A stretch of DNA of 64,000 bases from Paludisphaera borealis. GTDB taxonomy: Bacteria; Planctomycetota; Planctomycetia; Isosphaerales; Isosphaeraceae. Location of the stretch: assembly GCF_001956985.1 (NCBI RefSeq), contig NZ_CP019082.1, forward strand, positions 2,604,001 through 2,668,000, written 5' to 3'. The notes under the pieces were generated by a model, which saw only the letters and a list, made by a program, of their open reading frames with translations, made no database searches and was not told the origin of the DNA. This document shows, one piece after another, positions 18,772-39,918 of this stretch. Every line of letters begins with the position of its first letter. The first letter of the stretch is position 1. The translations under genes and the position numbers were made by a program.

Positions 18772-19255
18772 GCCCTGCCGGTCGGGGTACGACGTGTGCC
18801 GGTGGTGGAGCAAAGCCCAGGGAACCTCGCAGCCCAGGCTCCCATCCCCACCCTCATCGTGGCTCCGGGACCTGTGTCAATCGGCACCTCGGCGGGGAGT
18901 TCCAGTTTCGTTCTCGCTCCAGGCCGTTCCTCCAAGGTCAGTACGAGCATGGCGACGGTCCTGATCGCCCTGGCAGCGAAGATCCCCTTGTCCCCTTACA
19001 AGACAGGGGGAAGGGTCACTCCTAACATTGTAATGCAAAATACGGCGAATTGACCTGCTCCCCATTTCTTGGTCCAAGGGGAATGAGGGCAGGAGTCCGG
19101 TCGTTCAGGGGGGAACGGGGCGAAGCGCTCTCGAACGGTGGACCGAGTAGTTCTTGGGGCGAACGGACCCAATTGCTCGACCAGCGGATCGAGAGCTCGA
19201 AAGGAGGATCGGAGAGGTTTTTCCGGATTCCACCGGTTTCACGGAAGACGCTTGA
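18772..19255. other. Intergenic stretch with one copy of the GCGAACGGACCCAA repeat
   Basis: No gene is supported in these 484 bases between the exported protein and the mutase. A short minus-strand frame (18768-18950) opens with MLVLT but has no further CsrA-like sequence. Bases 19156-19174 (GGGGCGAACGGACCCAATT) match the dispersed repeat found in several copies at 39468-39833. Confidence 0.45.
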
Positions 19256-39154: not shown

Positions 39155-39467
39155 GGCGTCGTCTCCGATGCGTTTCGAGGAGAGTCGGTGGGTTCGCATT
39201 TCGGGCTGCGCCTCGAAAATCGATTGCTCGCGATGGCCCGTACGACGGAAGGAGGGACGCCGACCCCTTCGACGGAGCGGCGAAACGTCATGGATTGCGG
39301 GACGCCACCAACATACCCCCTCACATCCCCTCTGTCGACCCGCTAAAACCCCAGGAATCTCCTTCGGAAGTCGGCGTCTCGACACATATTAAGGATAGGT
39401 GGTCCCACCGCCGGCTCCTTGACAATACGCCTGAAACGGGAAAACCGGCCCCGCCCTACGTGAAATC

Positions 39468-39833
39468 GGCGCGAACGAAGCCAAATCTTCCCGGCCGGAT
39501 CGGCCGAGGAGGCGCGAACGAAGCCTTCGCGAACGTGCCTTCTCCCCTCGCGGGAGAAGGTGCCCCGCAGGGGGAGAAGCGAGAACACTCCGTCTTTTCC
39601 GCGCGAACGAAGCCACTTCGCTGAACGCTGTTACCCGCTTTAAATAAAGGACTTATGAAGCACAATGGCTTCCTTCGTCCGGCGCGAACGAACCCAATCG
39701 ACCCGCGTGGCGAAGCAGGTCGCAGGCATCGTCGGCGAGAGTGATTTCTGGACGAACGGACCCAATCCGCCGCGGATAGGGACGAGGGCGATGACGCGGC
39801 GAAACCCGTTGATTTCGGCGCGAACGAACCCAA
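39468..39833 (+). repeat. Dispersed 17-nt repeat GGCGCGAACGAAnCCAA, six copies
   Basis: Copies lie at about 39468-39486 (GGCGCGAACGAAGCCAAAT), 39511-39525, 39601-39618, 39681-39700 (GGCGCGAACGAACCCAATCG), 39751-39769 (GACGAACGGACCCAATCCG) and 39817-39833. All are in the same orientation, with spacing of 43 to 90 bases. A shorter piece (CGCGAACGTGCC) is at about 39528-39539. A seventh copy is 20 kb away at 19156-19174. The constant core is CGAACG-A-CC. No coding function is apparent. Confidence 0.75.
39538..39560. repeat. Hairpin repeat CCTTCTCCC-(5)-GGGAGAAGG
   Basis: A 9-bp perfect stem with loop CTCGC, 23 nt overall, shares its stem with the hairpin at 32669-32691. It lies inside the GCGCGAACGAA repeat field. 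The sequence and the following GTGCCCCGCAGGGGGAG resemble a hairpin repeat common in intergenic DNA of GC-rich bacteria. Confidence 0.65.
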
Positions 39834-39918
39834 CGCGCCGGCCGCTCTCGCGGGGGCGGGGGGATTCTTGTATACTTGGCTTTTACCAACGGCTAACAGC
39901 TCACCTAAAGGTTAGGCG

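Follow-up and report, generated by a model that had tools for sequence, protein, structure and literature searches.

Why six same-strand copies of a 17-nt repeat should lie within 366 bases just upstream of pyrG in Paludisphaera borealis is the question raised by this locus, which is part of a stretch of 64,000 nucleotides analysed here as a whole and termed the window. An earlier note on this DNA had offered a REP-like mobile unit, an array of regulator-binding sites for pyrG, or a DNA-uptake or structuring motif as explanations. Our best reading, to which we give about even chances, is that the array represents a single member of a family of non-coding elements dispersed in genomes of the Isosphaeraceae, composed of the repeat (R) and an AT-rich dyad (the core), and that such arrays are copies lacking gene X of an X-linked, probably mobile element which builds up a nucleoprotein complex in phase with the helix.

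The array upstream of pyrG

All six copies of R reported at 39468-39833 are present in the window, namely at 39468-39484, 39511-39527, 39600-39616, 39681-39697, 39749-39765, and 39817-39833 on the plus strand, as are the leader parts, the core, and the pyrG promoter given below, and their start-to-start spacings are 43, 89, 81, 68, and 68 bp. The 3' end of copy 2 has diverged, and copy 5 (TGGACGAACGGACCCAA), also diverged, differs from the consensus of the earlier note by more than three mismatches. The further copy reported near 19156 was found at 19156-19172, where it is isolated. With up to three mismatches allowed, the window contains nine R matches compared with 1.58 expected, and none of 100 shuffled sequences reached nine. 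The repeat, first read as GGCGCGAACGAANCCAA, is given here as GCGCGAACGAASCCAAT; its anatomy, derived from 146 copies, is [AG]WWW-S-SGCGCGAACGAASCCAATY, in which position 11 is always G or C and AASCCAA hardly varies.

The first R copy is preceded by a leader consisting of a -10-like box of putative function (CATATTAAGG, 39385-39394), which aligns with those of other array leaders (consensus TATxCTTA), a short hairpin (GGTGG/CCACC, 39398-39411) read from the sequence, with equivalents in many other array leaders, and a boxA-like motif (GCTCCTTGACAATACG, 39414-39429), which matches the boxA of the rRNA operons of this genome (GCTCTTTGACAATCCG). Copies 3 and 4 enclose on the left and right the 25-bp AT-rich dyad core TTACCCGCTTTAAATAAAGGACTTA (39631-39655), whose left half is imperfect and which was placed manually according to the geometry seen in 70 cores; in this assignment, it starts 30 bp after the start of copy 3 and 51 bp before copy 4. 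The -10 region of the pyrG core promoter (TATACTT, 39871-39877) is located outside the element and is kept in congeners without an array. Between copies 2 and 3, positions 39539-39579 are occupied by a separate REP-like inverted repeat with 16-bp arms (CTTCTCCCCTCGCGGG/CCCGCAGGGGGAGAAG), and similar hairpins occur in other intergenic regions (locus L019). A coding explanation for the array was rejected, as the copies are mutually out of frame and the spacings are not multiples of 3.

Abundance and placement in the genome

The genome comprises 7,651,896 bases in three contigs (one of 111,833 bases) and contains three 16S genes. With up to two mismatches, 422 R matches were counted genome-wide compared with 15 for the reversed pattern, so that the count is not at the level expected from composition that the earlier note had named as its refutation, and the two strands are balanced (210/212). 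Placement was analysed in a sample of about 864 kb, made up of the window, one contiguous stretch of 400 kb, and 20 selected pieces of 20 kb each, in which a weight matrix detected 161 R copies as opposed to 2 in the reversed sequence at the same threshold. Coding sequence makes up 80% of this sample, yet not one of these 161 copies is located inside a gene as predicted by a simple script of our own. The sample includes 27 arrays of at least three R copies, and extrapolation from either six arrays in the contiguous 400 kb or 422 matches at about five per array suggests about 100 array loci in this genome (85-115).

Each element occupies about 100-650 bp between genes and contains 2-8 R copies as direct repeats. 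The gene located 3' of the array is oriented in the same direction in 17 of the 27 cases and convergently in the other 10, often with its stop codon 6-27 bp away from the last repeat, so that the arrays are not promoters of the next gene. Within this genome, arrays are at best about 80% alike, and neither recent identical copies nor a target duplication nor a clean empty site was found for them. Other dispersed intergenic repeats (GAATGCACTCGCTGGCGCTTCGGGCTTGTATT; CCCATTTTCATGAGGC) are situated near arrays at the start of locus L023, at about 1600-1800 of L001 (minus strand), and in L116. Beside one of these repeats at L001 lies a putative RAYT-like gene (YFLTWTTYGTWLHG).

Helical spacing and the dyad core

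The spacing of the repeats, which had been described as irregular, is in fact quantised in steps of one DNA turn: start-to-start distances fall into bands of 43-47, 55-58, 66-71, 78-83, 87-92, 98-102, 108-113, and 120-124 bp, and the ranges in between are empty. The best period is 10.95 bp in this genome (95% 10.75-11.15), 10.45 bp in P. soli (24 arrays), and 10.2 bp in other genera, for which duplicate spacings were collapsed per genome, and in each of the three sets the strength of the period exceeds that of all 5000 jittered data sets (p<=0.0002). This period is the DNA helical repeat. Its occurrence in three separate genome sets points, from sequence alone, to selection on a DNA-bound complex.

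In 70 intervals between R copies, a 25-bp AT-rich dyad core of the form YAA-N4-TT-N7-AA-N4-TTR was recognised, the halves of which mirror each other with a correlation of 0.81 when the anchor columns are left out. Measured from start to start, the core lies 29-32 or 38-40 bp downstream of one R and mostly 50-52 bp, but also 40-41, 45, 59-60, or 70 bp, upstream of the next. The inverted half-sites around a 6-8 bp overlap that characterise a lambda-type attachment site are found in it (YAA-N4-TT, 7 bp, AA-N4-TTR); its symmetry alone would fit a dimeric repressor as well as a tyrosine-recombinase site. An RNA stem in the core was also considered and rejected, since no covariation was found for the outer core bases. 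One core interval at locus L104 (10123-10222) forms an unusually strong hairpin (z -3.5), unlike other cores.

Leader sequences and boxA

Most arrays of this genome have a leader with a -10-like TATxCTTA box, a short hairpin, and a boxA (GCTCTTTGACAATTCGG). Of the 27 arrays, 19 have a same-strand boxA upstream, compared with 0 of 81 other placements, and the same boxA precedes 16S and is present in the 16S-23S spacer of the three rRNA operons. It thus matches the rrn leader of its own genome and lies in array orientation, as expected for an rRNA-type boxA with a putative antitermination function, and it shows this type of boxA in use well beyond rRNA and CRISPR loci. Given the leader, many array copies are likely to be transcribed, and boxA would, by analogy to rRNA, keep RNA polymerase from stopping in the untranslated RNA. 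In P. soli, one of 24 arrays has a boxA.

Among 45 genomes of the order, 41 contain intergenic rRNA-type boxA motifs, including genera without R arrays (e.g. loci L194, L197, L195, and L207); in the genomes G006 and G007, the intergenic DNA that comes after these motifs is AT-rich and unexplained. At locus L039/L379 (G025:C1, about 3705940) of G025, a distant genus, a boxA is immediately followed by a perfect tandem array in which an R-like unit of 24 nt (CCGAACGAACCCAACCGCGGCGGG) is repeated more than 20 times; its period of 24 bp is not a whole number of turns.

Association with gene family X

Comparison of array flanks with P. soli revealed arrays directly at the 3' end of members of a gene family, here designated X, which encodes proteins of about 340-450 amino acids with the shared N-terminal motif ANRxNAxxSxGPxxxxGKAxSRxNxLxHG. 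The X proteins are predicted to be all-helical with a disordered C-terminal tail (mean pLDDT of the structure model 69); no family in Pfam or NCBIfam was matched, and searches against the PDB gave no significant sequence or fold match (none with E below 0.001). X was not found in viral contigs. R is present in the 3' coding end of the X copies at L001 and L023 of this genome and, beyond an inserted IS110 element, at L094 and L120, with a complete R-core-R arrangement in the tails at L023 and L120. It is likewise present in X tails of P. soli; X loci noted here are L360-L378 (G025), L023, L001, L094, L120, L260, and L163. Within one X gene, both at L023 and at L260 of P. soli, the reading frame changes from one R copy to another (giving NEAN and ERSQ/ERTQ), and hence it is the DNA word rather than the peptide that is conserved in X tails.

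The link between X and R in this genome is in part a matter of ascertainment, because several X copies were found through R. The loci of G025 were chosen by boxA alone: there, 17 of 19 non-rRNA boxA loci have an X gene upstream, and in 13 of these 17 boxA is located 22-44 nt after the X stop codon. The X tails of G025 contain 27 R-like motifs compared with 1.2 expected, whereas none was found in the gene bodies. The X copies of G025 are 63-92% alike, and in the closest ones the likeness extends from about 170 nt before the start codon, in some cases until about 40 nt beyond the point where boxA starts, a pattern as for a gene that would have been copied along with its flanking DNA. An X gene is missing beside most of the sampled arrays. 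The order of parts differs in that boxA precedes R in the arrays and follows it in the X loci, and for this reason an origin of the arrays by simple internal deletion from X loci was rejected. The uncharacterised family X gains a testable partner in R DNA.

An IS110-family element with R as its target

The element interrupting X at L094 and L120 belongs to the IS110 family according to its DEDD_Tnp_IS110 and Transposase_20 domains. Its ends were located at L094 (17172 and 18618), L120 (11422 and 12868, minus strand), L106 (9028), L009 (1405), L002, L005, L015, and L102, and all ends found in the sampled part of this genome are placed at one and the same R position, with the left flank ...GCGCGAAGGAAC or a close variant and the right flank AAGAACCCAAT or AAGAAGCCAAT. 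As insertion occurred at the same R point in every flank seen, R is a natural target of this element, one that the arrays offer in many copies and that is probably exploited as abundant and harmless. In the members studied, the targets of IS110 elements are set by a bridge RNA (PMC11208160).

Comparison of congeners

In all five congeners compared, the pyrG promoter (TATACT...GGCTTTTACC) is kept and the array is absent, a result contrary to what the proposed pyrG regulator array would lead one to expect. No array was found at hisS and secA in the four congeners readable at each, and at guaB one of five congeners has one. Between hslV and its neighbour, an array is present both in this species and in P. 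soli, in opposite orientation. The number of R matches at one mismatch ranges from 2 to 275 among species of the genus. In the empty-site comparison at secA, the intergenic segment was replaced, with no boundary or duplication visible. R-core arrays are thus not specific for pyrG, which would be a chance neighbour.

Alternative explanations and proposed mechanism

By its parts, R-core resembles a site at which a DNA-protein machine, probably mobile, would dock, and not a pyrG switch. The reading as a pyrG-specific regulatory array, the second guess of the earlier note, can draw on the fact that the pyrG core promoter closely follows the array on the same strand, but with about 100 other loci having unrelated neighbours and with five congeners lacking the array at pyrG, we consider its chances to be almost nil. 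A nucleoid or regulon protein that binds R and core at about 100 loci, and in this way organises the genome or regulates it, would be a different matter: X would then merely carry a site, and copies would arise and vanish by duplication and drift without any mobility system. Whole-turn spacing and a dyad core are what cooperative binding needs, and the intergenic location of the arrays and the lack of any sign of recent transposition also agree with such a protein; nevertheless, we judge it unlikely, if deserving serious attention, as array positions show little conservation among congeners, an unusual trait in a regulon, as R lies inside the coding end of a multi-copy gene, and as 10 of 27 arrays run into convergent genes.

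Alternatively, promoter, hairpin, and boxA might drive antiterminated transcription of a long non-coding RNA family in which the R words act as RNA. The conserved leader with its rRNA boxA in array orientation, the presence of boxA loci in all genera of the family, and the known position of boxA upstream of long untranslated RNAs and CRISPR arrays, for the latter of which protection from termination was proposed (PMC7862264), are in favour of this. However, the spacers contain several clear hairpins without any excess over shuffled sequences (mean z -0.28), an Rfam search gave no match, the core shows no covariation, and most P. soli arrays have no boxA, so that we rate an RNA family as improbable. 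Moreover, nothing at the RNA level would account for spacer lengths that follow the helix; since RNA hairpins would not give whole-turn spacing, and in view of the folding, covariation, and Rfam results, R and core are taken as DNA sites. That R is mainly a target or scar of the IS110-family element is highly improbable: the position of all ends found in the sampled sequence at one R point speaks for it, but most arrays have no adjoining IS, and phasing, core, and boxA would be left unexplained.

In the preferred reading of the arrays as X-less copies of an X-linked, probably mobile element, a protein, either X or a partner, would bind R sites that lie on the same side of the helix and cooperate across R copies. 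The same protein would bind the core as a dimer, giving an intasome-like complex similar to that of lambda integrase on its arm and core sites. X genes with R would represent the source elements, and the arrays would be copies without X that spread into intergenic DNA. Such a complex may move DNA, fold the chromosome, or do both; mobility is favoured by the turnover of arrays, their opposite orientations beside hslV, and the multi-copy X genes; it is weakened by the fact that no recent copies or clean ends were found. Further points against the preferred reading are that X is without a recognisable enzymatic fold and that P. soli arrays are mostly without boxA. There is a real chance that X plus R-core constitute a new kind of system. 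More specifically, and as a tentative possibility only, they might form an undescribed mobile-DNA or recombination system, in which all-helical X and a partner build an intasome-like complex, and which in some species of the family would have seeded non-autonomous copies, about 100 in each genome, and be coupled to boxA-antiterminated transcription.

Comparison with known systems

A literature search for the repeat sequence or for planctomycete intergenic repeats retrieved nothing relevant, and the passages found from the published comparative genomics of these bacteria do not mention the R element (PMC5352709), which, as far as these passages go, makes R-core a previously undescribed abundant genomic element. 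A role in DNA uptake, as suggested in the earlier note, is unlikely for clustered, phased, composite loci that are intergenic apart from X tails and do not represent a scattered single word; the structuring role suggested along with it is compatible with helical phasing. The exclusion of CRISPR in the earlier note holds, as the repeats are diverged with spacings of 43-124 bp rather than near-identical with constant spacers. Like CRISPR arrays with boxA leaders, R arrays consist of a boxA leader followed by direct repeats with unrelated spacers, but they differ from them by diverged repeats, spacers of 26-110 bp in whole-turn steps, many loci, and a dyad core. A single CRISPR locus of P. borealis is published (PMC5352709). 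No cas genes were seen among the flanking genes read beside arrays.

In iteron replication origins, an AT-rich segment adjoins direct repeats that measure about 17-22 bp and lie whole turns apart. R arrays share the whole-turn spacing next to an AT-rich segment; in contrast to iterons, they are dispersed on the chromosome in about 100 copies, and no rep gene was seen beside them. The proposed REP-like mobile unit is borne out in so far as the elements are dispersed, intergenic, variable between species in position and copy number, and linked to a multi-copy gene. With REP/REPIN sequences and their RAYT genes (REPtrons), R also shares shortness, high copy number, and use as an IS target. It is not a REP, however: R is a non-palindromic direct word rather than a 20-40 bp palindrome forming a hairpin, it is helix-phased around a dyad core, the linked X protein is no recognisable Y1 (RAYT) transposase and has no Pfam match, and the consensus of 146 copies has no GTAG or CGTC tag, which at one end is part of the REP/REPIN definition (PMC3733652).

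The lambda attP site is bound by an integrase that cooperates across arm-type and core-type sites (PMC4880445). Tyrosine recombinases were rejected as partner of R-core, as their counts in six species (8, 9, 20, 20, 21, and 24) do not follow array abundance; of the eight integrase genes (PF00589) of this genome, none was found within 5 kb of sampled arrays. R-core differs from attP by its approximately 100 copies per genome and by longer and more numerous R repeats; what it has in common with attP are two inverted half-sites, a 7-bp centre, and flanking direct repeats of another class at fixed phase.
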